From: Jiella marina
GTDB taxonomy: Bacteria > Pseudomonadota > Alphaproteobacteria > Rhizobiales > Rhizobiaceae
NCBI RefSeq assembly: GCF_024359545.1
Contig: NZ_JAKQZG010000005.1
Span: forward strand, 1 to 64,000
Direction: 5' to 3'
DNA length: 64,000 nucleotides
Position numbers and translations under genes: made by a program. Shown piece by piece: positions 42,846 to 54,899 of the stretch (the first letter of the stretch is position 1; the number at the start of each line of letters is the position of its first letter). The notes under the pieces were generated by a model, which was not told where the DNA came from, did no database searches, and saw nothing but the letters and a program-made list of their open reading frames with translations.

Positions 42846-43047
42846 TCGGCCCTACACTGAGATCGATCCACGCCACCCGATGAAGGCAAGCCGACGGTCT
42901 GTCCAGAAATTCGCAAGTCTGCAAACCGAGGCCATGGGGTGGTACGCGCGCGATATCGAGCGGTGGCAGCGGTGTATGAAGATCAATGCCTTTGTGGTGA
43001 GAGCGGCGAAATCCACCCGCTTTTGCCTTCCGAAGCAAACGTGGCCG

Positions 43048-43212
43048 TCATCGCTTTTCCCCCGCCGTTCCGGGAAAACGGTTTGGGGTCGAAGTAGAGA
43101 TTGAAGTCGTCGATAAAGCCCCCGGCGACAAGACTTCCAAGCCCGCGCGCCATCTATTCGTCCCAGCGCAGCGCAGCGCGGCTGCGAACGCGTTCATTGC
43201 GTCGTTCGTCAT
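43048..43212 (-). pseudogene. Decayed tenth Nif11-type precursor peptide gene
   Basis: A strong ribosome site (GAGGAGGAGAGAGC) precedes MTNDAMNAFAAALR, the opening of the Nif11-type leaders encoded upstream. The next ~50 leader residues are deleted, and in another frame a core-like VAGGFIDDFNLYFDPKPF survives, matching the aromatic-Asp core starts of its neighbours. An internal deletion plus frameshift has therefore removed most of the leader. It is last in the array. Confidence 0.7.
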
Positions 43213-43289
43213 CGTGCTCTCTCCTCCTCGACGAAACTGAGAGTGCCGCCAGTCCGAGGATCGCTGCTCTCGGACTGTCGACCAGGGGC

Positions 43290-43631
43290 TCAGAGGACTT
43301 TCGCTATCCCGTCGCAGGCGTTGTTCCACAATTTCAGGGTCGCCTGATCCGCGTCGCGAACAGAATTGCTGACGAACTTGCCGAAATCATCGAAAAAGCC
43401 CGCGCCTGCCACGGTGTCGAGTTCCTCATCGGAAAGAGCGTTGTCGCAGGTGGTCGGCCTGCGAAAGTCCTCGATGTCCCTCGCTGTAACCTCGAAGCCG
43501 GCCGCCTTCGCATAGGCCGCGACCGCGACGTCGCCCTCCGGCCCCTGCCGATCCGCGATGGCCTCGGCAAGTCCCCGGGCGAGTGCCGTGTCGCCACGCA
43601 CGGCGGCGAGAAAGTCGTGAAGGGTCTTCAT
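43290..43631 (-). CDS. Nif11-type leader precursor peptide 1
   Basis: A 113-residue RiPP-like precursor. The leader opens MKTLHDFLAAVRGDTALARGL and ends in LSDEELDTVAGAG, the double-glycine-type cleavage site for a C39 peptidase. The core begins GFFDDFGKF and continues about 35 residues with one Cys (LWNNACDGIAKVL). The ATG overlaps the stop of precursor 2 (ATGA), so the two are translationally coupled. It is exported by the NHLM-type transporter encoded upstream (inference). Confidence 0.85.
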   Translation of the reverse strand: MKTLHDFLAAVRGDTALARGLAEAIADRQGPEGDVAVAAYAKAAGFEVTARDIEDFRRPTTCDNALSDEELDTVAGAGFFDDFGKFVSNSVRDADQATLKLWNNACDGIAKVL

Positions 43632-43960
43632 TGCTTGCGCTCCGAAGGAAACATGGCGTTCATCTGTCTTTCCCGGCTGCTCTGGGAAAACAAGGCGGTA
43701 TCCCAAAAGCCGAAGTCGAACCAACCCCCGGAGGCAGCGTCGAGTTCGTCGTCGGACAGCGCGTCGCCATTGGCGGCGGGCCGCCGGGCGGCTTCGACGT
43801 CGGCGACGGTCACCTCGAAGTCTTGCTGCCGGGCAAAGGCCGCGAAGGCCTCGGCGGCATCTCCGTTCGACCTGCCCTCGATCGCAGTCGCCAGGGCAGG
43901 GGCCATCGTCTCGTCATTTCGGACGGCAGCGACGAAATCGTTCATTGCATTCATTGTCAT
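43628..43960 (-). CDS. Nif11-type leader precursor peptide 2
   Basis: A 110-residue precursor with leader MTMNAMNDFVAAVRNDETMAPAL and a cleavage region LSDDELDAASGGW. The core GWFDFGFWDTALFSQSS is strongly aromatic, then ends in a charged tail (ERKQ) whose codons include the ribosome site of precursor 1. No Cys in the core. The ribosome site GGAGCG is 8 bp from the ATG. Confidence 0.85.
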   Translation of the reverse strand: MTMNAMNDFVAAVRNDETMAPALATAIEGRSNGDAAEAFAAFARQQDFEVTVADVEAARRPAANGDALSDDELDAASGGWFDFGFWDTALFSQSSRERQMNAMFPSERKQ

Positions 43961-44284
43961 GAAGAACGCTCCATCGTTCTCATACGGTGTCGTCGCCGGG
44001 CCCGGTGACCAAGGCACGGGCCCCGGCGTTACGGACTACAGACCCGGCCTCGCAGGTCACTTCGCTATCCGACGGGCCATGGCGAGGCTCGCGGAATTCG
44101 ATCGCCGCAGGATCCGTGTGCCACCGGCCACCCGGTCAAGCTCGCCATCGCAGATTGCGTCGGCTCGATCCTCGCCGTTTCGTGGGGCGCCAGCGGTAGC
44201 CGGCGCACCGATCATGTCTTCGGCAGGGTGAAGAGCTCCGGCATGGTGGTTCAGGGGCTCGGAGATTGATGATGGACTGGTTCT
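43961..44284. other. Spacer within the peptide array
   Basis: A 324-bp gap between precursors 3 and 2. No open frame with a leader signature was found. A GC-rich imperfect stem (CCGGGCCCGGTG with CACGGGCCCCGG, 44001-44031) may pause or end transcription from the upstream precursors. The rest shows nothing recognisable and may be a lost precursor. Confidence 0.4.
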
Positions 44285-44650
44285 TCAGCCATTGATGACG
44301 CCTTTGACCGCACCATCTACAGAGTGGACAAGCCCGGCGGCGCCCCTTACCGCCGAAGATTTCTCGATAACTTTTGCCCAGTTCACAGGGTTGATGAAGT
44401 CAAGGAACAATCCTGCGCCCGAGACTGCATCCAGCTCCTCGTCGGAAAGTGCCCCATCCGCGGCTGCGGGCAGGCGAAGCTTTTCCAGGTCCTGTGCCGC
44501 TACGTCGAAGCCGCGTGCCTGAGCGAATTCCACGATCGCAATCACGCCCTCCTCTTCGTGCTTACCGCCAATAGCAGCAACAAAACGCCTAGCCATTTCT
44601 TCATCACGGTGGAGAAGTGCCGCAAATTCATTCATCGATTTTTCTGTCAT
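44285..44650 (-). CDS. Nif11-type leader precursor peptide 3
   Basis: A 121-residue precursor, the longest in the array. The leader MTEKSMNEFAALLHRDEEMARRF ends in LSDEELDAVSGAG. The core begins GLFLDFINPVNWAKV and ends GAVKGVING, a hydrophobic, Gly-rich and probably helical tail. No Cys, Ser-rich or Thr-rich stretch that a lanthipeptide synthetase would use. The ribosome site is weak (GGAT). Confidence 0.85.
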   Translation of the reverse strand: MTEKSMNEFAALLHRDEEMARRFVAAIGGKHEEEGVIAIVEFAQARGFDVAAQDLEKLRLPAAADGALSDEELDAVSGAGLFLDFINPVNWAKVIEKSSAVRGAAGLVHSVDGAVKGVING

Positions 44651-44728
44651 TTTTTCAGATCCATATCACATAGAATTGCAGTGTTTATTTCCAGAGCAGC
44701 CGCTGCCTCCTGCATTATGGGAAGAAAT

Positions 44729-45076
44729 TCAGAAACCGTTCTTGACGCCATCTTGCCCTCCCTTCAATCCTCCCAACATCCCAGCCTTTAAGCGGCCGAT
44801 AGTGAAGGCCATGGCGTCGTCGAGGAAGTCGAAGAGCCCTGCACCCGAAACGGCATCGAGCTCATCGTCCGACAATGCACCATCCGCGGACGGGGGCCGG
44901 CGGAGTGCTTCGATATCCTGCGCCGTGACGTCGAAGCCGCATGTGCGGGCGTAGGCGAGGATGGCGTCCTCAGCGTCTCTTCCCGTCCTTTCGCCGATCG
45001 CGGCTGCGAGGCCACTGGCCATCTCCTCGTCCGCGCGGGCTGCATTGGCGAAGTCTTTCATGGACTGGATACTCAT
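44729..45076 (-). CDS. Nif11-type leader precursor peptide 4
   Basis: A 115-residue precursor: leader MSIQSMKDFANAARADEEMASGL, cleavage region LSDDELDAVSGAG, core GLFDFLDDAMAFTIGRLKAGM followed by a GGLKGGQDG-type tail. AAAGGAGA before the ATG is a near-perfect ribosome site. The core start is nearly identical in pattern to precursors 3 and 6. Confidence 0.87.
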   Translation of the reverse strand: MSIQSMKDFANAARADEEMASGLAAAIGERTGRDAEDAILAYARTCGFDVTAQDIEALRRPPSADGALSDDELDAVSGAGLFDFLDDAMAFTIGRLKAGMLGGLKGGQDGVKNGF

Positions 45077-45316
45077 AGGATTGGTCTCCTTTCTCGTGTT
45101 TCTCTTGCCCAAAGATGCGATGTACCGGCATCCCGGTGACGTCTTGGCTCGGGGGTGATGAACGGCTCCATGAACGCGTATGCGAACCGAGCCAATTCGA
45201 TGAGCCGCCCGGCGGCACCAGAGTTCTTGATTGCGTCGAGGGTTACGACGTCACCTCACTGGCTGCAGTCGCCCTCGGCGCAGTCGCGAGCGGCGCCGTC
45301 TTGCGTCGCCGATCGA

Positions 45317-45631
45317 TCAATCGTGCAGGCTGTGCGTTCGATGAATGGCCCCGCACAGAAGGCCTGCTCCGCTTCGGCTTCCGCGCGAGTAACCGGCGCC
45401 GGCAACGGCATCGAGCTCTTCGTCCGTCAGGGAGCTCTCGCCGCCGGCGGCCTGCCGGTAGGCCTCGGCATCCTCTGCCGTCACGTCGAAGCCATGCTCC
45501 CGCCCGTAGACGACGAAGGCCTCGGCGGCCTCTGCGTCGCGCTTTCTTCCGATGGCCGAAGCCAACCCCGCGGACAGGGTCTCGTCGCCGCGCAGCGCGG
45601 CCGCGAAGTCGTTCAGGGTCTTGTTGCTCAT
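45317..45631 (-). CDS. Nif11-type leader precursor peptide 5, core possibly frameshifted
   Basis: A 104-residue precursor with an intact leader (MSNKTLNDFAAALRGDETLSAGL, ending LTDEELDAVAGAG). The in-frame core is only about 24 residues (YSRGSRSGAGLLCG..., 1 Cys) and lacks the aromatic-Asp start of its relatives. In the next frame the DNA stays open to a stop at 45256-45258 and would give a longer core with four Cys (AFCAGPF, ERTACT, RDCAEGDCSQ). A one-base indel at the leader-core border may have changed the product. Confidence 0.75.
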   Translation of the reverse strand: MSNKTLNDFAAALRGDETLSAGLASAIGRKRDAEAAEAFVVYGREHGFDVTAEDAEAYRQAAGGESSLTDEELDAVAGAGYSRGSRSGAGLLCGAIHRTHSLHD

Positions 45632-45713
45632 GTCGCTATCTCGATTCTGCTCTTCTGGTCCGGCGGGAGGCCGGGCTCGACCACCTGGGCCCGGCTGTGG
45701 CTTGGACGCCGCC

Positions 45714-46055
45714 TCAGATGGAGGGGTCTCTTCCGAAGGATGTGCCCGAGGGTGCCGCCGTGACCGCCCTGGCTCCGTACGAGGGGTCGAAGAACACGCC
45801 GCCGAAGTCGAACATGCCGGCGCCCGAAACCGCCTCGAGCTGGTCGTCGGAGAGGTTGCCCTCGCCGGCAGCGGCCCGCCGCTCGGTCTCGACGTCCTGC
45901 GCGCTTACCTCGAAGCCGCGCTCCCGGGCGTAGGTCGCAAGCGCCTCCAAGGCGTCCCCGTCGCGCCTTTCGCCGATCGCGGCAGCCGCACCGCGGGCCA
46001 TTTCCGGGTCCTGGCGCAACGTCTTTGCGAATTCGTTCATGGCTTCGATCGTCAT
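45714..46055 (-). CDS. Nif11-type leader precursor peptide 6
   Basis: A 113-residue precursor: leader MTIEAMNEFAKTLRQDPEMARGA, cleavage region LSDDQLEAVSGAG, core GMFDFGGVFFDPSYGARAV with a Ser/Thr-containing tail (TAAPSGTSFGRDPSI). AAGGAA lies seven bases before the ATG. Leader and core follow the array pattern. Confidence 0.86.
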   Translation of the reverse strand: MTIEAMNEFAKTLRQDPEMARGAAAAIGERRDGDALEALATYARERGFEVSAQDVETERRAAAGEGNLSDDQLEAVSGAGMFDFGGVFFDPSYGARAVTAAPSGTSFGRDPSI

Positions 46056-46102
46056 TGTCGGTTCCTTGTCTTGGGATCGGGCCGCGCCCGTGCGTCCTTG
46101 GT

Positions 46103-46438
46103 TCAGTCGAGGATGCCCTTGAAGATCCCGTCGCCCCAGTCGAGCACCGGGTCGAAGGGGGTGCTGAAGCCGACACCCATCGGGCCGCCGCTGAAGGTGC
46201 CGCCCGCGACCGCGTCGAGCTGGTCGTCGGACAGGGCGCTTTCGCCGGCGGCGACCTGCCGGACGGCCGCGAGATCGCGCGCGGTCAAATCGAAGCCGCG
46301 CTCCCCCGCATAGGCGAGGAAAGCTTCGTCAGCTTTGCCATCGTGCTGCTTTTCGGCGATGGCGGCGGCCAGTCCCCTGGCCAGGGACTCGTCGCCCTGC
46401 ATCGCGTTGGCGAAGTCGTTGAGGGTCTTCATGGCCAT
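46103..46438 (-). CDS. Nif11-type leader precursor peptide 7
   Basis: A 111-residue precursor: leader MAMKTLNDFANAMQGDESLARGL, cleavage region LSDDQLDAVAGGT with a true Gly-Gly. The core TFSGGPMGVGFSTPFDPVL ends WGDGIFKGILD. The leader is very close to that of precursor 8, and their upstream spacers are also alike, so the two genes are recent duplicates. Confidence 0.87.
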   Translation of the reverse strand: MAMKTLNDFANAMQGDESLARGLAAAIAEKQHDGKADEAFLAYAGERGFDLTARDLAAVRQVAAGESALSDDQLDAVAGGTFSGGPMGVGFSTPFDPVLDWGDGIFKGILD

Positions 46439-46535
46439 GTCCGTCTTTCCATTCTGGTTGTCGGGTTGGGGAAGGCCGAGGCGGAACCAGGGCAGGCCAC
46501 GCCGGCCCGGGCTGGTCTCGCATCGGCGGCAGCCC

Positions 46536-46874
46536 CTAGTGGTTCTGCGTGATCAGATCCCTCGCGCTGGTAAGGCTGGTAATGGTGACGTCCAATGCAT
46601 TGCGGGTGACGAAGCTGGCCGCGTCGAAAAAGAAGCCGCCACCCGCGACTGCGTCGAGCTGGTCATCCCACAGGGCGCCTTGGGGAGCCGCTGCCTGGCT
46701 CGCCGCCTCCACCTCGTCTGCGTTCACGTCGAAGCCGGCCGCCCGGGCATAGGCCGCGAAGGCCTCGGCCGCCTCCGGCCCCTGCCGGTCGCCGATCGCG
46801 TTGGCCAAGCCTCTGGCCAAAGTCTCGTCCCCCTGCACGGTGGTGGCGAAATCGTTGAGCGTCTTCATGGTCAT
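46536..46874 (-). CDS. Nif11-type leader precursor peptide 8
   Basis: A 112-residue precursor: leader MTMKTLNDFATTVQGDETLARGL, cleavage region LWDDQLDAVAGGG (Trp replaces the usual Ser), core GFFFDAASFVTRNALDVTI with Thr-rich middle. GGAGAAAATGAC precedes the ATG. No Cys in the core. Confidence 0.87.
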   Translation of the reverse strand: MTMKTLNDFATTVQGDETLARGLANAIGDRQGPEAAEAFAAYARAAGFDVNADEVEAASQAAAPQGALWDDQLDAVAGGGFFFDAASFVTRNALDVTITSLTSARDLITQNH

Positions 46875-46984
46875 GTCATTTTCTCCATTGTGGTCGTCTG
46901 GTTGGCGAGGCCGAGGCCTCGCATGCGGCGGCCGGCCCGAAGCCTCGCCGTCACGCTTTCTCCTCATGGAACCGTTCTCTTTTT

Positions 46985-47133
46985 CGCGGTTCGCTTTCTG
47001 AGGCCGACAGGCGAGATGCCGTGCCGCGATGTCGCAGACCGGGCCATCCCGCGCGATCAGCTCTTCTCAGGTGCCGGTCGGGATGATGCGACCGGTATCC
47101 GCCACGTGGAGGCGATCCTCGTGACGCATCGTG
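46985..47133 (-). pseudogene. Duplicated 3' fragment of the NHLM ABC transporter gene
   Basis: The minus strand reads HEDRLHVADTGRIIPTGT, then a stop, then EELIARDGPVCDIAARHLA. This parallels the true transporter ending (HADRIHVVEAGRIVQTGT, Y, EELIAREGPFREIAARQLA) encoded about 520 bp upstream at 47533-47661. The nucleotide match extends through the spacer downstream of the transporter stop. A unit containing the transporter 3' end plus one precursor gene was therefore tandemly duplicated, leaving precursor 9 between the live and dead copies. Confidence 0.85.
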
Positions 47134-47146
47134 CTGTGAAAGCCCT

Positions 47147-47488
47147 TCACGAGGCCGGCGGCTCAAGAAAAGACCGGCCGAGGAAGTAGTTCTGGATGAT
47201 GGAAAAGTGGTCGAATGTCTTGGGGTCCGTCATAACGTCCTCCCAGTGGCCGGCGCCGGACACGGCATCGAGTTCCGCGTCCGAGAGGGTGCCGTCGCCA
47301 TCGGAGGATGGCTGGAGTGTCAGGACATCCTCCACCGTCACCGCGAAGCCCCTTGCCTGGGCATAGGCTGCGAAAGTCTCCACAGCTTCGGTGCCTGCAT
47401 TGCCGTTCAGGCAGCCAGCCAGTCCGTCGGCCATTTCCTGATCTGCACGCGCAGCCTCGGCGAAAGCGCTCATTGCTTCGATGCTCAT
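47147..47488 (-). CDS. Nif11-type leader precursor peptide 9
   Basis: A 113-residue precursor and the first after the transporter gene. The leader is MSIEAMSAFAEAARADQEMADGL with a cleavage region LSDAELDAVSGAG. The core GHWEDVMTDPKTFDHF is followed by a tail rich in aromatic residues (SIIQNYFLGRSFLEPPAS). It is the most divergent core. The ATG at 47488 has GGAGAACGG upstream; a TTG three bases earlier is less likely. It lies 44 bp after the transporter stop, so it is co-transcribed with the export genes. Confidence 0.86.
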   Translation of the reverse strand: MSIEAMSAFAEAARADQEMADGLAGCLNGNAGTEAVETFAAYAQARGFAVTVEDVLTLQPSSDGDGTLSDAELDAVSGAGHWEDVMTDPKTFDHFSIIQNYFLGRSFLEPPAS

Positions 47489-47532
47489 CAAACCGTTCTC
47501 CTTTTCATGGTTCGCTTCGCTTCCGGGCTATT

Positions 47533-50202
47533 TCAGGCGAGCTGCCGTGCCGCGATCTCGCGGAACGGGCCCTCCCGGGCGATCAGCTCTTCGTAGGTGC
47601 CGGTCTGGACGATGCGGCCGGCCTCGACGACGTGGATGCGGTCCGCGTGGCGAACCGTGCTCAGGCGATGCGCGATGACGATGCGCGTCGCGTTCATCTG
47701 CGCCAGGCTGTCGGAGACGATCGCCTGGGTGCGGTTGTCGAGGGCGGAGGTCGCCTCGTCCATCAGGAGGATGCGCGGCTTGCGCACGATGGCGCGGGCG
47801 ATCATCAGGCGCTGGCGCTGGCCGCCGGAGAGACCGCCCCCGCCCTCGGACAGCATGGTGTGCATGCCCATCGGCAGAGCGCGCACGTCGTCCTCGAACC
47901 CCGCCATGCGGGCGGCCTCCCAGGCGGCGGCCTCGGGCAGGGGCAGCGAGCCCACGATGTTCTCGTGGATCGAGCCCGGCAGGAGCGTGCCCCGCTGCAG
48001 GACGACACCAAGCTGGCGGCGCACCGCCTTCAGGTCGAGACGGGCGAGGTCGTGGCCGTCATAGACGATGGAGCCCTCATTCGGCGTCTCGAAGCCCAGC
48101 AGCAGGCGGAAGATCGTCGACTTGCCGGATCCCGAAGCGCCGACCAACGCCACGAACTCGCCGGGCTCCACGGTGAGGCCGACGCGGTCGAGCACGAGCG
48201 GCCCGTTCTCCGCGTACCGGAAGGAGACGTCGTGCAGCGCGATGCGGCCGGTGAGGTTTCCGGGATCGCGCCGCGCCGGGTCGACCTCCGGCTGCGCCTC
48301 AAGGACCGGCTTCATGTTTTCGTAGATCGGCACGGCCGCCAGCGACACCGAGAGGGCGCCCACGAGCCCGAGCATCGCGCCCTGGAACTGGCCGAAGGCG
48401 ACCGTGAAAGCGGCGAAGTCGCCGATCGGGATCGTGCGGTCGCCGAAGCCGACGATGGCGAAGAAGAGAAGGCTCGCCATGATCGGCAGCGCGCCGTTCA
48501 CCGTCGCCGTCACGTTGCCGACGGTGGCTGCCCGGTAGCGCTCCAGGCGCTGCTCGCCGAAGCCGCGCAGCCAGCGGGTATAGGCGCGGTTCTCGGCGCC
48601 GGCGAGGCGGATCTTCTGGATGCCGTAGAGGATCTGCAGCATGAAGCCGGACACAGCGGCGTCGGCCTTGATCAGCCGGCGCTCGTAGCGCAGCTGCCAC
48701 CAGGTGAGGCCGCCGAGAATGAGGACTGCGACCGCCGTGAAGCCGAGCGCGGCAAGCGCCAGCGTCGCGTCGTAGGCGAGCATGATGGCGAAGTTGACGA
48801 CGGAGAAGATCGCCGCGAGCGCGGAATTCGCCACCGTGTCGGAAAGTGCCTGGCGCAGCTGGGTCGGACCCATCGCCTTGATCATCAACTCGCCGGTCGA
48901 ATGACGCCGGTAGAAGTCGAGCGGCAGGCGCAACAGCCGGTCCCAGATCGCCTGTTGCAGGCTGCCGTCGGCGATCCCCTCGACGCGGCGCAGGGCGACC
49001 GTTCGCACCATCTGGAAAGCGGCCGAGCCGATTGCCACCATCACGAGACCGAGCGAGAAATGGGCCAGACGCTCCGTCTCGGCGAAGGGAAGCACCTCGT
49101 TCATGAGCCGTCCGGTGATCAGCGGAGTCAGGAGCCCGAGGAGTGCGGCGAGAAGCGCCATGCCGGCAGCCCACCGCATGTCGGCTGGGGCAGGGGTGGC
49201 CAGCACGTGGCGCACGAGGTCCCAGCCCTTCAACCGGCGCCACGGCAAAGGCCGGAACACCACATAGCCGAAGGGCTGGAGCCGTGGAGCCCCGGACGTG
49301 CCGGCCCTGCAACGGGCACCGGTCTGAGGATCCACGATCTCGAAGCGGCCGGCTCCGCGGCGAAGGACCGTTCGTGGCCGACCGTCGGCGTCGAAGCCGA
49401 CGAAGCCCGCGCTGTCCTGACGCCACCAGCCATCGTCCAGCCGGATGCGGCGCGACCGCACGCCGGCGGCCCGCATCGCCTGGCGCAGGTCTGTATCCGG
49501 GTCGCCCGTTGCCGGTTGGGCAGCAGAGAGCTCGATCTCGATGCGCTGCGCCTCGCAGAGCATGGCGAGAGCGGCGAGCGCAGGGTCAGTGGCGGTTGCC
49601 GGGCCCTGCGTGGTGTCCGCGGTCCGGCCTTCCATCAGGGCGGGCAGCTCCAAAAGCGCCGTGTCGAGGAGCGTCTGCTCCTGGGCGTGCCGGTGGCGGG
49701 CACGCTCGTCCTCTGCCCGGGCGTCCGTTGAGAGGTCGCGCCGGATGGCGGCGGCGAACGCCGTCATGGCGGCGTCGAGGGAAGGCCAGCCGCCGTCGAC
49801 CGATACCTGTACCTCCTCGTGGCGCAGAGCCTTCCGCATTGCGGCAAGCGGACCCTCAAGACCCGTCGGTTGGTCAGCGGCGCGGGCCTCGGGACTCATG
49901 CGCACGACGCGGGCCGGGCCGACGCCGACCGCGAAGAGGCGCAAGCCCGCGGTCCGCTCCGGCGGCACGGCCACCGCCTCGCCCTTCGCCAGCGTGGCGA
50001 TGCAGCGGCGGCGGCCGGTCGGCTCGCCGGCCTCGTCCACGAGCTCGGCAAACAGGTTGACGCGGCCGGATGTCACCCGGAGAAGCCCGAGCGGTGCGGC
50101 AAGATCGACGAGCGTACGGCCGTCGATCCGCTCGTCCGCGGCGGAGGCCGGGAGCGTGAACGCCTCGGTTGGAATGGTCGCGATGGCGGCGGTTCTGAGC
50201 AT
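47533..50202 (-). CDS. NHLM-type ABC transporter, permease plus ATPase with N-terminal regulatory-like domain
   Basis: An 889-residue export ATPase. The first ~330 residues are a soluble domain of the kind seen in NHLM bacteriocin-system transporters (GRRRCIATLAKGEAVAVPPE, a cyclic-nucleotide-binding-like fold, then FGYVVFRPLPWRRLKGWDLV). Then come six helices and a nucleotide-binding domain with Walker A GASGSGKST, signature LSGGQRQR and Walker B ILLMDEATSALD. It lacks the C39 peptidase and pairs with the next gene upstream. The ATG at 50202 (MLRTAAI) has CAGGAG nine bases before; a GTG at 50211 overlaps the C39 gene stop. Confidence 0.88.
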   Translation of the reverse strand: MLRTAAIATIPTEAFTLPASAADERIDGRTLVDLAAPLGLLRVTSGRVNLFAELVDEAGEPTGRRRCIATLAKGEAVAVPPERTAGLRLFAVGVGPARVVRMSPEARAADQPTGLEGPLAAMRKALRHEEVQVSVDGGWPSLDAAMTAFAAAIRRDLSTDARAEDERARHRHAQEQTLLDTALLELPALMEGRTADTTQGPATATDPALAALAMLCEAQRIEIELSAAQPATGDPDTDLRQAMRAAGVRSRRIRLDDGWWRQDSAGFVGFDADGRPRTVLRRGAGRFEIVDPQTGARCRAGTSGAPRLQPFGYVVFRPLPWRRLKGWDLVRHVLATPAPADMRWAAGMALLAALLGLLTPLITGRLMNEVLPFAETERLAHFSLGLVMVAIGSAAFQMVRTVALRRVEGIADGSLQQAIWDRLLRLPLDFYRRHSTGELMIKAMGPTQLRQALSDTVANSALAAIFSVVNFAIMLAYDATLALAALGFTAVAVLILGGLTWWQLRYERRLIKADAAVSGFMLQILYGIQKIRLAGAENRAYTRWLRGFGEQRLERYRAATVGNVTATVNGALPIMASLLFFAIVGFGDRTIPIGDFAAFTVAFGQFQGAMLGLVGALSVSLAAVPIYENMKPVLEAQPEVDPARRDPGNLTGRIALHDVSFRYAENGPLVLDRVGLTVEPGEFVALVGASGSGKSTIFRLLLGFETPNEGSIVYDGHDLARLDLKAVRRQLGVVLQRGTLLPGSIHENIVGSLPLPEAAAWEAARMAGFEDDVRALPMGMHTMLSEGGGGLSGGQRQRLMIARAIVRKPRILLMDEATSALDNRTQAIVSDSLAQMNATRIVIAHRLSTVRHADRIHVVEAGRIVQTGTYEELIAREGPFREIAARQLA

Positions 50203-50207
50203 CCCGG

Positions 50208-52364
50208 TCACTCCTGCGCCATCAGCGCGGCATAGGTGCCGGCGGCGGTCATCAGTTCGTCATGGCTGCCGCGCTCGACGACATGGCCACGCTCGAGCAC
50301 GATGATCTCGTCGGCATCGCGAATGGTGGACAGGCGGTGGGCAACGATCAGGCAGGTGCAGCCGCGCCGGCGGATGTGCTCGTCGATCGCCTTCTCGGTG
50401 GTGGGGTCGAGCGCGCTTGTCGCCTCATCGAGGATCAGGATGCTCGGATTGCCGGAGAGCGCGCGGGCGATCTCGAGGCGCTGCGCCTGGCCGCCGCTGA
50501 AATTGCCACCGCCTTCCTCAACCTGCGCGTCGAGCGTGCCGGCGCGGGCCGAGACGGTCTCGAGGATCTCGCCGTCGCGCAGCGCCTCGACCAGCACGTC
50601 GTCCGGCACGGTCGCATCCCAGGCGCTCAGATTGTCGCGGACGGACCCGCCGAACAGGACGATCTCCTGACTCACCGAGGCGACCGAGCCCGTCAGCGTA
50701 GAGGCGGGAATCTCAGACAGTGGCACGCCGTCGAGCAGGATCTCGCCCGACCAGGGGCGGTAGAGACCGCTGACGAGCTTGGCGATGGTCGACTTGCCCG
50801 AGCCCGAGCCGCCGACCAGCGCGACGCGCGCGCCCGGCTGCAGCGTGAGATCGAAATTCTCGATGAGCGGGGCTTCGAGCGGCGTATAGCCGAAGGTCAC
50901 GTTCTTGAGCTCGATGCGGCCCGTAAGCCGCGCGGGCGCCTGCGTATCCTCGACGGGTGCATAGCGCGGGTCGCGGGCGTGGCCGAACACGTCATCGGAG
51001 CGCGACAGGTCTGCCCCGAGCTCCTGGAAGCTGCCGCCGACGGCGACGAGGCTCTTCACCGGCCCCATGAAGCTCTGCACCAGCGCCTGGAAGGCGACGA
51101 GCGTGCCGATCGTCATCGATCCCTCGATGACCCGGTAGCCGCCGAATCCGAGGATCGCAGCGATCGTCAGCCCATCCAGCAGCGGCGGCAAGGCACTCGC
51201 GGTGACGCCATAGCCGCCGAGCCGCCGGAGATTGTTGAGGTGCTTCGCCTGAAAACCCGCCCAGCGCTCGAAATAGTCGTCCTCGGTGCCGGTCGCCTTC
51301 AGCGTCTCGATCGCCTGAATACCGGTCACGGAGGCGGCCTGGAAGCGGCCGAAATCCTGCTGCATGCGCAGGGCGGCATCGGCCCGGCGCCGCGAGAGTG
51401 CTTGGAATACCGCGACGTTGACGCCTGCGAGCGCGAGCGCCACGAGCGTCAGCCGCCAGTCGAAGCACGCCATGACCACGACGTAGAACGAGACGGTGAT
51501 CATGTTCGCCAGGCTCTCGCCGAGCTGACCCGCCACAGCCCCTGCAATGCGGTCGTTGGCGTCGATCCGGTAGGAGATGTCGCCCGGATGGCGCTGGGTG
51601 AAGAACGACAGCGGAAGCCGCATGAGGTGCCAGACGAAGCGGGCGGACTCGGCCAGGGCGAGCTTCGTCTCCATCCTGAGGAGCAGGCTCTGGCGCAACC
51701 ACGTGAGGAGCGCCGAAACGAAGGCGGTCACCGCCATCGCGGCGATCAGCGGACGCAGCCAGTCCTCGTGACCTTTCACCAGGATCTCGTCGATGAAGAT
51801 CTTCGAGAAGCCGGGCACGAGGAGGCCGGGTACGACGAGGGTCAGGCTGATCAGCACGGCGAGCGTGATCGAGCTGCGCACCAGGCGCGCCCGCGGGGCA
51901 AGGCGCGAGAGGAGCCCCGGCGGCGGCGGATCGGCCTCGAACGCCTCGCCGGGCTCGATTTCGAGCATCACGCCGGTGAAGGCTTCGTCGAACTCCTCCA
52001 GGCTCACCGTGCGGGGTCCGACGGCCGGATCGTTCAGGTAGACGCGGTCGCGGTCGCACCCTTCCACGACGAGGAAATGGTTGAAATTCCAGAAGGCGAT
52101 GAAGGGAAAGCGCGACGCCAGCGCGGTGGCGACCTCGGCTTTGCGTCCCCGCGCCTCGAAACCGTAGGTGCGGGCGGCAACCACGATGTTCTTCGCCTTG
52201 GACCCGTCGCGCGAGACGCCGCACGCCGCGCGCACCTCCTCCAGCGGCCTCCAGCGGCCGTACTGGGCCATCAGGCTCGTCAAGGCAGCGGCGCCGCACT
52301 CCACTGCCTCCATCTGAAGCACGGTCGGCGTGCGCACCCGCTTGCTCGCCTTGCCGGGCTTCAC
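50208..52364 (-). CDS. NHLM-type peptidase/permease/ATPase (C39 peptidase ABC exporter)
   Basis: A 718-residue exporter that cuts leader peptides and moves the cores out. The N-terminal C39 cysteine-peptidase domain has Q17, C23 (LQMEAVECGAAALTSL), H96 (NHFLVVEGC) and D112 (VYLNDPAVG). Next come a six-helix domain and an ATPase with Walker A GGSGSGKST, signature FSGGQAQR and Walker B ILILDEATSALD. It cleaves after double-glycine-type sites, as found in all nine precursors. The GTG at 52364 overlaps the HlyD stop (GTGA). Confidence 0.9.
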   Translation of the reverse strand: MKPGKASKRVRTPTVLQMEAVECGAAALTSLMAQYGRWRPLEEVRAACGVSRDGSKAKNIVVAARTYGFEARGRKAEVATALASRFPFIAFWNFNHFLVVEGCDRDRVYLNDPAVGPRTVSLEEFDEAFTGVMLEIEPGEAFEADPPPPGLLSRLAPRARLVRSSITLAVLISLTLVVPGLLVPGFSKIFIDEILVKGHEDWLRPLIAAMAVTAFVSALLTWLRQSLLLRMETKLALAESARFVWHLMRLPLSFFTQRHPGDISYRIDANDRIAGAVAGQLGESLANMITVSFYVVVMACFDWRLTLVALALAGVNVAVFQALSRRRADAALRMQQDFGRFQAASVTGIQAIETLKATGTEDDYFERWAGFQAKHLNNLRRLGGYGVTASALPPLLDGLTIAAILGFGGYRVIEGSMTIGTLVAFQALVQSFMGPVKSLVAVGGSFQELGADLSRSDDVFGHARDPRYAPVEDTQAPARLTGRIELKNVTFGYTPLEAPLIENFDLTLQPGARVALVGGSGSGKSTIAKLVSGLYRPWSGEILLDGVPLSEIPASTLTGSVASVSQEIVLFGGSVRDNLSAWDATVPDDVLVEALRDGEILETVSARAGTLDAQVEEGGGNFSGGQAQRLEIARALSGNPSILILDEATSALDPTTEKAIDEHIRRRGCTCLIVAHRLSTIRDADEIIVLERGHVVERGSHDELMTAAGTYAALMAQE

Positions 52365-53614
52365 AGGCCGGCTCCCAGGAGCGACTTGAGGAACGGCAGG
52401 ATCAGCGTGACGGGCGCCTGCTCGCGCACCGTGATGCTGGCGGAAGCGAGAGTGCCGGGCTCGACGGCGAAGTCGGGACCTTTGCCGCCGGTCCAGGCGA
52501 AACCCGACGCGGTCTCGGAATCGGCCGAGAGGCCCGCGCGCACCACGATCGGGGCGCCGTCGCGGGAAAACTCCTGCACCAGGCGGTCGTTGTGGAGCAT
52601 GGCCTGGATCGCCGAGGAGGACATCGGCAGTTCCGAGACGCTCTCGACCGTTGCCGGGATCGTGCCGACCTCCTCCTTGTTCACGATGGAGGGCTCGACG
52701 TTCACGGTATCGCCGACCCTGATCCGTTTGCCCTCACGCGGGCTCACGAAGAGGAGGGCGTCGTCCTCGTCGTCATGCGAGACGATGCGGATGACCGGCG
52801 TGCCGGCGGCGACGACGTCGCCGAGCGAGGCAGAGATCTCGGTCACCGTCCCGTCGATCGGCGCATCGACCGTGCCGTGGAGCTTCAGAAGCTGCTTGAG
52901 GTCCTCGACCCGGTCACGGGCGACCTCGACCTCCTTTTCCTGCGCAACCGTCTGCCGGCGCCAGTCCTCGCGCAGGCGGTTCGCCTCACGATCGATGTCC
53001 AGCCCGGCGTAGCGAAGGCGGCTGATCTCCTCCTGGACCTTGGCGAGTTCGTCCTCGATGGTGATGACGCTGATCTTCTTGGTGTAACCCCGATCGAGGA
53101 GATCGCGGTTGGCGGCGAGGCGATCCTCGAGGACCTTTGCGCGATGCTCGCCATGGGCGAGCTTCTCGTCGATCGCCTCGCGCCGTCTGGCGTCGAAGCG
53201 ACCGTTACGCGCGAGTTCCCCCTCGAACTGTTCGCGCAGCGTCGCGAGGCGGTCCTCGGCATGGGCGAGGGCCTCTTGCGCGCGGGTGAGTTTGGCCTGG
53301 GCGACATCCTGCTTCAACAGCGCAAGAGCCTCGCCCTTACGAACGCGCGCGCCGATCTCGACAAGGATTTCCATGAGCTGACCGTCACCCTCGGCGGCAG
53401 CCGAGAAGATTTCGCTGCCATGACTCAGAAGGATGCCGTCGGCCTGGATGCGGGTCGGCACCTTGCCGAGAAAGCCCCAGCCCACGGCCGCGACGACCAC
53501 CGCCGCGGTCGCCGAGAAGGCGACCCAATGTCTGGGCGATGCCGCCACCAGCGCCTCGTCGAGACGTTCCGGGGATGCGATGCGCTTGAGTGCCTGTTCT
53601 CTGAAGATCGTCAT
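52361..53614 (-). CDS. HlyD-family periplasmic adaptor of the NHLM secretion system
   Basis: A 417-residue membrane-fusion protein. A short cytoplasmic start is followed by one transmembrane helix (WVAFSATAAVVVAAVGWGFLG), a lipoyl/barrel-sandwich motif split around a long coiled coil (AKLTRAQEALAHAEDRLATLREQFEGELA to RRQTVAQEKEVEVARDRVEDLKQLL), then VDAPIDGTVTEISASLGDVVAAGTPVIRI. It connects the exporters to an outer-membrane channel; no TolC gene is in the window. The ATG at 53614 is chosen; a TTG 15 bp upstream also works. It is first in the operon and divergent from the AraC gene. Confidence 0.87.
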   Translation of the reverse strand: MTIFREQALKRIASPERLDEALVAASPRHWVAFSATAAVVVAAVGWGFLGKVPTRIQADGILLSHGSEIFSAAAEGDGQLMEILVEIGARVRKGEALALLKQDVAQAKLTRAQEALAHAEDRLATLREQFEGELARNGRFDARRREAIDEKLAHGEHRAKVLEDRLAANRDLLDRGYTKKISVITIEDELAKVQEEISRLRYAGLDIDREANRLREDWRRQTVAQEKEVEVARDRVEDLKQLLKLHGTVDAPIDGTVTEISASLGDVVAAGTPVIRIVSHDDEDDALLFVSPREGKRIRVGDTVNVEPSIVNKEEVGTIPATVESVSELPMSSSAIQAMLHNDRLVQEFSRDGAPIVVRAGLSADSETASGFAWTGGKGPDFAVEPGTLASASITVREQAPVTLILPFLKSLLGAGL

Positions 53615-53678: not shown

Positions 53679-53725
53679 CGTCCGATACTTTGCAGGCCGT
53701 CCCGCGAACTGTGCAGATCGTCCCG
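53679..53725. promoter_or_regulatory. Three phased CGTCC-type direct repeats in the divergent intergenic region
   Basis: CGTCCGA (53679), CGTCCCG (53698) and CGTCCCG (53719) lie 19 and 21 bp apart, each followed by a similar ACT/GTGC segment. Two-helical-turn spacing of direct repeats is typical for AraC-family half-sites. They lie between the HlyD gene and the AraC gene, so they may control both. Confidence 0.5.
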
Positions 53726-53843: not shown

Positions 53844-54899
53844 TTGCCGAGCGATGAATACACAACCGCCCACGCGACCGTAGCGGCCCCGCATTCCGTG
53901 TTCTCCGTGCAGGCGGTTTCGCCTCGAGAGCGGTTCGCGTTCTGGAAGGAAAGCATCGCCTGCGTCTTCGACGTGGAGGCGGACCCGGATGTGCGGGGCC
54001 ACGATTTCTCGGCAGAACTCGAGGCGACGCTCCTCGGTGACATGATGCTGGCCCGCACGACGACGCTCGGCCAGTCGTGGCGCCGCTCCGCTTCGACGAT
54101 CGCGCGCGACGGCATGGACCATTACATGATCCAGCTCTTCGTCGAAGGCGGCATGGAGACCGATCACCGTAACGGCAGCGCCTCCGTCGGGGAGAGGTCG
54201 CTCGTGGTGTTCGACCTGTCGCAGGAGGTCGCCAGCCAGACCTCGCGGTTCACCAACCTGTCGCTGATCATTCCGAGAGGCAGCCTAGTCGATGCGCTCA
54301 ACATGCCCGACGATCAGCACATGCGCGTGCTGCCCGGCCGGAATCCGCTCGTGGGCATGCTGATCGACCATATGATGAGCCTGGAGCGCGTGAGGACGTC
54401 CGTTTCCGTTCCGCAAGCCCGTGAGATCAGTGCCGCTACCACTTCTCTGGTCGCCGCCTGCCTCAACGGGGCGATGGAAGGCAGAACTCAGGGAAAGGAA
54501 GGTTCAGCCGCGGCTCAGATCATCCTGGTCAAGCGGCTGATCGAACGGCATCTCGGCGACTCAGCTTTTTCCGTTGCGCAGATCTGCCAAATGGCCGGGA
54601 TCTCGCGCACGAAGCTCTACTCGCTCTTCGAGCCGCTCGGCGGGGTCACGGGATATGTCAGGGAGCGCCGTTTGCGCAGGGCGCTGTCAGCTCTCACCGA
54701 ACCCCGCAACCAGTATCGCCCGATTTACGAGATCGCCGCAGGCTGCGGCTTCACCAACGAAAGCGCCTTCAGCCGGGCCTTCCGGCAACGTTTCGGCTTC
54801 TCCCCCCGCGAGGCCCGGCAGCAGGGCAACAGTGCACTCGCCACGCCGGGAGGCATGCTCGATGACCGCCGCTACGAGCACTGGCTGCACCACCTTTGA
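53844..54899 (+). CDS. AraC-family transcriptional regulator
   Basis: A 351-residue regulator. The N-terminal part is an AraC-binding-like domain (FAFWKESIACVFDVEADPDVRGHDF, DHYMIQLFVEGGMETDH, LVVFDLSQEVASQ). The C-terminal HTH pair spans about 235-330 (SVAQICQMAGISRTKLYSLFEPLGGVTGYVRERRLRRA and IYEIAAGCGFTNESAFSRAFRQRFGFSPREAR). The start is TTG at 53844 with AGAGGA eight bases upstream; no in-frame ATG fits the domain. It is divergent from the HlyD/peptide-export operon across 229 bp, so it is the likely regulator of that island. Confidence 0.88.
   Translation: MPSDEYTTAHATVAAPHSVFSVQAVSPRERFAFWKESIACVFDVEADPDVRGHDFSAELEATLLGDMMLARTTTLGQSWRRSASTIARDGMDHYMIQLFVEGGMETDHRNGSASVGERSLVVFDLSQEVASQTSRFTNLSLIIPRGSLVDALNMPDDQHMRVLPGRNPLVGMLIDHMMSLERVRTSVSVPQAREISAATTSLVAACLNGAMEGRTQGKEGSAAAQIILVKRLIERHLGDSAFSVAQICQMAGISRTKLYSLFEPLGGVTGYVRERRLRRALSALTEPRNQYRPIYEIAAGCGFTNESAFSRAFRQRFGFSPREARQQGNSALATPGGMLDDRRYEHWLHHL

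Follow-up and report, generated by a model that had tools for sequence, protein, structure and literature searches.

Nif11-type leader peptides are usually taken to be docking handles for modifying enzymes. In the NHLM/N11P systems described by Haft et al. (2010, PMC2887384), precursors of family TIGR03798 form expanded paralog sets next to genes of families TIGR03794, TIGR03796, and TIGR03797, and the available part of that report lists transporter-adjacent N11P genes without a named enzyme in several species. The cyanobacterial group V clusters of Wang et al. (2011, PMC3140520) likewise combine HlyD, a short C39-ABC protein, a peptidase-less second ABC protein, and precursor arrays, with LanM clusters placed in another group. 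Nif11/NHLP peptides are also said to occur in rhizobial genomes (PMC6783444). Here we describe a related locus from Jiella marina, in a window of 64,000 nucleotides of contig NZ_JAKQZG010000005.1, where an island had been noted at positions 43048-53614. Nine intact Nif11-type precursor genes lie there directly downstream of three NHLM export genes on the same strand. The architecture, compared by analogy, resembles that of group V; group V differs in being cyanobacterial and in having double CAP_ED proteins, and AraC is not mentioned for it in the available portion of PMC3140520. The window locus departs from the NHLM/N11P systems in its cysteine-poor cores (just 2 Cys in 302 residues) and in its AraC partner, which is not found in the accessible text of PMC2887384.

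We favor, as a reasonably probable account of this locus, an AraC-controlled and maturase-free export of linear, cysteine-poor, bacteriocin-like or signal-like peptides. The export cassette is contiguous from 47533 to 53614 on the minus strand, and each component scores above its curated cut-off: a HlyD-type membrane fusion protein (52361..53614; TIGR03794, 265.2 bits against 156.2), ABC1 with C39 peptidase, permease, and ATPase domains (50208..52364; Pfam Peptidase_C39; TIGR03796, 1009 bits against 853.3), and ABC2, an NHLM permease/ATPase without a peptidase (47533..50211; TIGR03797, 838.2 bits against 709.4). A whole-genome search with TIGR03798 returned nine matches, all on the minus strand between 43404 and 47488, of which eight exceed the cut-off of 32.3 bits and one, p3, falls below it; every precursor has a double-glycine-type site, GG in three (p2, p7, and p8) and GA in six. 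An AraC-family regulator (53844..54899, plus strand; Pfam HTH_18 and AraC_binding_2) is divergent from hlyD. The original prediction, made from the letters alone, had described these leaders, cleavage sites, upstream export genes, and AraC neighbor, and the profile searches bear it out on each. Chance is excluded as the origin of the island, because of the hidden Markov model scores and because the gene order is conserved in other genomes. As far as sequence can establish them, the genes, their order, the motifs, the catalytic residues, an enzyme-free clade, and one conserved core are established.

A local modifying enzyme was not recognized among the flanking open reading frames (ORFs), in agreement with the same prediction, and the locus does not qualify as a biosynthetic cluster for ribosomally synthesized and post-translationally modified peptides (RiPPs). 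The flanking ORFs, ten compared with NCBIfam and four with Pfam, are metabolic enzymes, regulators, and transporters, with two of the ten assigned to no family; this also covers, in part, the suggested check for a maturase just beyond the island. Beside the locus we likewise recognized no ATP-grasp enzyme of the graspetide kind and no MNIO, halogenase, arginase, or methyltransferase, classes for which no genome-wide search was made. In the whole genome, LanC-like proteins gave no match (the control matched) and YcaO gave none (five controls matched), which places the locus outside the lanthipeptides and outside the thiazole/oxazole-modified microcins (TOMMs) and linear azol(in)e-containing peptides. 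For peptides of sactipeptide, ranthipeptide, or proteusin type, whose maturases are radical-SAM enzymes, the only SPASM match in the genome lies within PqqE. Sixteen radical-SAM matches correspond to 15 proteins, and 11 of these matches (10 proteins, one in two pieces) were classified by family. MoaA, PqqE, BchE (twice), a PA0069 type, an MSMEG_0568 type, RlmN, and a UDG-linked type exceed family cut-offs, and five more proteins are, by eye only, of MiaB, HemW, MtaB, LipA, and HemN types. Two proteins, on contigs C3 and C34, exceed no named-family cut-off, and one of them has a B12 domain. They count in favor of a rival explanation, modification by an enzyme whose gene lies at another place in the genome, on the pattern of Prochlorococcus-like or TOMM distant-enzyme systems. 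Precursors far from their enzymes have been reported (Haft et al. 2010, PMC2887384, in the part available), and Ser and Thr make up 13% of the core residues. Against this, the genome searches gave no LanC-like protein, YcaO, SPASM protein other than PqqE, or NHLM-type GNAT; the two genes are surrounded, by eye, by housekeeping genes and genes of sugar-nucleotide type, and none of these neighbors is a precursor; and the same distant-enzyme arrangement would be required in four other loci. We regard this explanation as unlikely. Between unmodified peptides and a distant enzyme, the alternatives named in the original prediction, the evidence leans toward unmodified without settling the choice.

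The four other loci are those that group with the window. In a C39-ABC tree of 25 rows (with L140 represented by its first ABC1 piece, and L134, whose ABC1 is fragmented, L012, and L057 excluded), the window, Fulvimarina manganoxydans, and the genomes G494, G828, and G978 form one clade with support of 100/100, spanning four GTDB families (f1 twice, f2, f66, and f174). The Fulvimarina locus (L063, genome G193) was the one locus obtained from 50 pattern matches in a scan of named genomes. Its proteins are 67% (AraC), 70% (HlyD), 85% (C39-ABC), and 73% (ABC2, over 752 aa) identical to those of the window, and it encodes six Nif11 precursors and one short double-glycine peptide. The same cassette, with an AraC match, recurs in G494, G828, and G978, so that AraC and double-glycine peptides are common to all five clade loci. 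Ratios of nonsynonymous to synonymous substitution (dN/dS) against Fulvimarina are 0.14-0.26 for the three transporters and AraC; judged by these ratios, the four genes are under purifying selection. In that the window locus has no recognized local enzyme, the label "orphan" given to it earlier holds; in that four more loci have the enzyme-free layout, it is not a lone case. Because related bacteria keep the same enzyme-free set, the peptides are probably secreted plain.

The selidamide-type loci (phaeornamide; review PMC9505594, seen in part) are similar in their NHLM exporter, double-glycine precursors, and AraC, and differ in the GNAT that adjoins their precursors and may acylate the peptides. 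An NHLM-type GNAT was not found in the window genome, which sets the locus apart from selidamide-like systems, and phmmer searches with five GNAT queries found none at any of the five clade loci. GNATs lie near the precursors in 8 of 20 other rows of the tree, the GNAT-bearing loci being L082, L083, L086, L104, L106, L131, L135, and L143; loci outside the clade were judged for GNAT alone among enzymes, and L129 stood outside this search. A GNAT profile scored 24.8-27.5 bits (generic matches) in the five clade genomes and 407-462 bits in three others, which are controls by construction because their GNATs are rows of the profile.

The peptidase and the leaders appear to fit each other. The C39 domain of ABC1 (from 52364 to roughly 51900) has its best PDB match in LahT150 (6mpz; E 2.1e-40), and its Cys23, His96, and Asp112 align with the LahT triad Cys27, His101, and Asp117. 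LahT belongs to the Lah cluster of Lachnospiraceae C6A11 (Bobeica et al. 2019, PMC6363468), which, in the portion of the report available, likewise has nine Nif11-type precursors with diverse cores and differs in being a lanthipeptide operon. LahT is reported to cut Nif11-type leaders, and the window leaders fit its recognition at positions -12, -8, -7, and -4 as far as the accessible text describes it: Leu stands at -12 and at -7 in 9/9, Glu (six) or Gln (three) at -8, and Val at -4 in 8/9. An AlphaFold2 model (A4, with p4 first) has four confident leader helices, with 10-residue means of 81-94 up to residue 60, and confidence near 50 or less in the core. In the mechanism we propose, the AraC-family protein would activate the divergent operon, in which HlyD, C39-ABC, and the second ABC make up a type I export complex of the NHLM kind and are followed by the precursor set. 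The C39 domain would then recognize the helical Nif11 leader and cut after GG or GA. The core, 25-42 residues long in the window, would leave in linear form, no enzyme being dedicated to its modification, and would act outside the cell as a bacteriocin-like agent or a signal.

The original prediction had also described the cores as diverse and combinatorial. They do differ from one another, and yet the cores of the window and Fulvimarina share a trait: an aromatic residue occurs within the first four core positions in 16/16 cores, against 0.33 expected per core, an expectation taken from the rest of the cores, with paralogs that are not independent. Within the first five positions it occurs in only 23/31 cores of the clade. 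One core is, moreover, better conserved between genera than the leader that precedes it. The p7 core (TFSGGPMGVGFSTPFDPVLDWGDGIFKGILD) is shared with Fulvimarina F3 at 17/25 identical residues (68%; E 1.1e-13), with a z of 18.2 against 4.9 for the next best among 353 between-genome core pairs. The p7 and F3 leaders are 49% identical to each other, and each is more similar to another leader (p8 at 62% and p9 at 54%), so core and leader have parted ways. Likenesses weaker than that of p7 and F3 tie Fulvimarina F5 to V1 of G828 (E 1.1e-5, z 4.8) and to p3 and p4. Amphipathic helices were considered as a general core trait and rejected, as the helical moment of only 7/20 cores was matched in at most 5% of shuffles.

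Other members of the wider set show C-terminal and leader features of their own. In the G828 array (L137:16010-18539), K-K-W or K-Q-W forms the C terminus of five ORFs, of which four carry full Nif11 leaders; the window has no such motif. Two precursors beside a GNAT in G762 (L131:6999-7896) end in FFSGW, with a C-terminal Trp again. In G494 (L087:9094-10378), one Nif11 precursor is accompanied by short double-glycine peptides that lack a full Nif11 leader, and one core of this genome has DRALA in common with Fulvimarina F7 (z 3.7).

Control by AraC has a proposed activator site in a pair of tandem AraC-type half-sites (53680..53715, minus strand), 21 bp apart and upstream of hlyD. They lie 101 and 80 nt from the hlyD ATG at 53614, where the noted island ends, and 104 and 83 nt from it in Fulvimarina; the pair was found by looking, and the looser half-site pattern was written after the alignment was inspected. 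We presume the motif to be of XylS/AraC type. An earlier pattern, TGCAMARTNNNNGGAC with one mismatch allowed, gave a single match at 44876, no more than expected by chance (mean 0.63), and did not pick up the tandem half-sites.

Several observations weigh against AraC-controlled, maturase-free export as we propose it. The tandem half-site matches at 22/26 positions between window and Fulvimarina (BLAST E 0.30) and did not turn up in G494, G828, or G978. For p7/F3, dN/dS is 0.64 with few sites, which is not low and does not by itself indicate selection on the precursors. A full Nif11 precursor occurs just once in G494. In G978 (L140:10203-13899), the ABC1 coding sequence is divided between two frames and the HlyD frame is interrupted by a TGA stop, representing either broken genes or assembly errors. 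Finally, no immunity gene was recognized. This is a difference from the class II bacteriocins and colicin V-like microcins, which are otherwise alike in their double-glycine leader, C39 exporter, and lack of a dedicated modifying enzyme; the window leader, of about 79 aa and with a Nif11 fold, also differs from theirs, which are short.

The want of a recognized immunity gene, together with AraC control, suits the alternative that the products are secreted signaling peptides and not antimicrobials, the same machine put to another use. C39 exporters are reported to carry quorum signals as well. Against signaling stand the nine differing cores within one genome and the Gly-rich core stretches common to the window and Fulvimarina F5 (z 4.2-4.9), which we take to be bacteriocin-like in look, and we find signaling to the exclusion of antimicrobial action somewhat unlikely. 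Under the broader account that we prefer, the peptides perhaps serve as weapons or signals.

The array itself, entirely on the minus strand, has had a changeable history. Closest to the exporter is p9 (47147..47488, frame open from 47491; TIGR03798 34.7 bits), the first precursor after ABC2, from which it is separated by 44 bp counted from 47488. It is followed by p8 (46536..46874; 37-37.2 bits), p7 (46103..46438; 42.1 bits), p6 (45714..46055; 32.5 bits), and p5 (45317..45631; 37.4 bits), which has the shortest core (25 aa) and 1 Cys. Then come p4 (44729..45076; 41.7 bits), whose core begins GLFDFLDD, p3 (44285..44650; 30.2 bits, E 2.2e-6), with a Gly-rich core end, p2 (43628..43960; 32.8 bits), and p1 (43290..43631; 47.9 bits), with core GFFDDFGKFVSNSVRDADQATLKLWNNACDGIAKVL and a 4-base overlap with p2. 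Where one decayed precursor had been reported, tblastn with the precursors points to at least two remnants, both weak taken singly: one at about 43019..43227 (best E 0.014), with a leader start and a core end in different frames and an internal stop, and a weaker one at 44069..44218 (best E 0.097), with a leader end and GG site. Between p9 and p8 lies a 128-bp duplicate of the ABC2 3' end (47008..47135), 83% identical to 47534-47661. These remnants and the copied end indicate both gains and losses in the array, and the copied end suggests a tandem duplication spanning the junction of ABC2 and the precursors, in which the end of the ABC2 gene appears to have been copied together with a precursor.

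Such debris, with the broken transporter of G978 and the presence of the system in 1/10 genus genomes, might instead mark a decaying RiPP cluster that has lost its enzyme. The three transporters and AraC are intact, however, with the low dN/dS given above, the enzyme-free layout is common to five loci, and nine precursors remain open; we therefore hold decay to be highly unlikely.

The system is rare and patchy. HlyD exceeded its cut-off in 4/199 genomes drawn from the family and 10/398 from the phylum, HlyD profile matches occurred in 1/10 genomes of the genus and in 18/385 drawn from the class (with surroundings read for 11 of the 22 places found), and TIGR03798 matched in 9/397 drawn from the order, the Fulvimarina genome not being among these nine and presumably not drawn. 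This distribution suits horizontal gain. Among 11 plasmid records, with contexts read for four, the best match was 35% identical to HlyD, indicating no close plasmid kin. An empty site in the genus was not demonstrable, the left neighbor gene being absent from the other nine genomes as well. In Fulvimarina, integrase-like, helicase-like, and primase-like genes just past the precursor array (L059:4104-16555) look, by eye, like those of an integrated element.

NHLM-adjacent N11P genes without a named enzyme have been known since 2010, and the part added here is the AraC-linked, enzyme-free branch, which we did not find described with conserved cores in a literature where subscription journals were thinly covered. 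We tentatively extend this to the possibility that alphaproteobacterial NHLM includes an AraC-controlled, maturase-free branch in which leaders would serve recognition and export only, leader and core would be separate modules, and a core may be kept across genera, as for p7 and F3. The computed masses of the linear cores ([M+H]+ 3229.56 for p7, 3716.89 for p4, and 2608.29 for p5, with cleavage after GG or GA) make the claim of unmodified peptides directly testable, and genome miners are warned not to assume a lost or hidden maturase. If true, a branch with leader, protease, and exporter and no recognized enzyme would mean that a Nif11 leader can serve export alone, and that Gram-negative bacteria have a natural modification-free system for peptide display and secretion.

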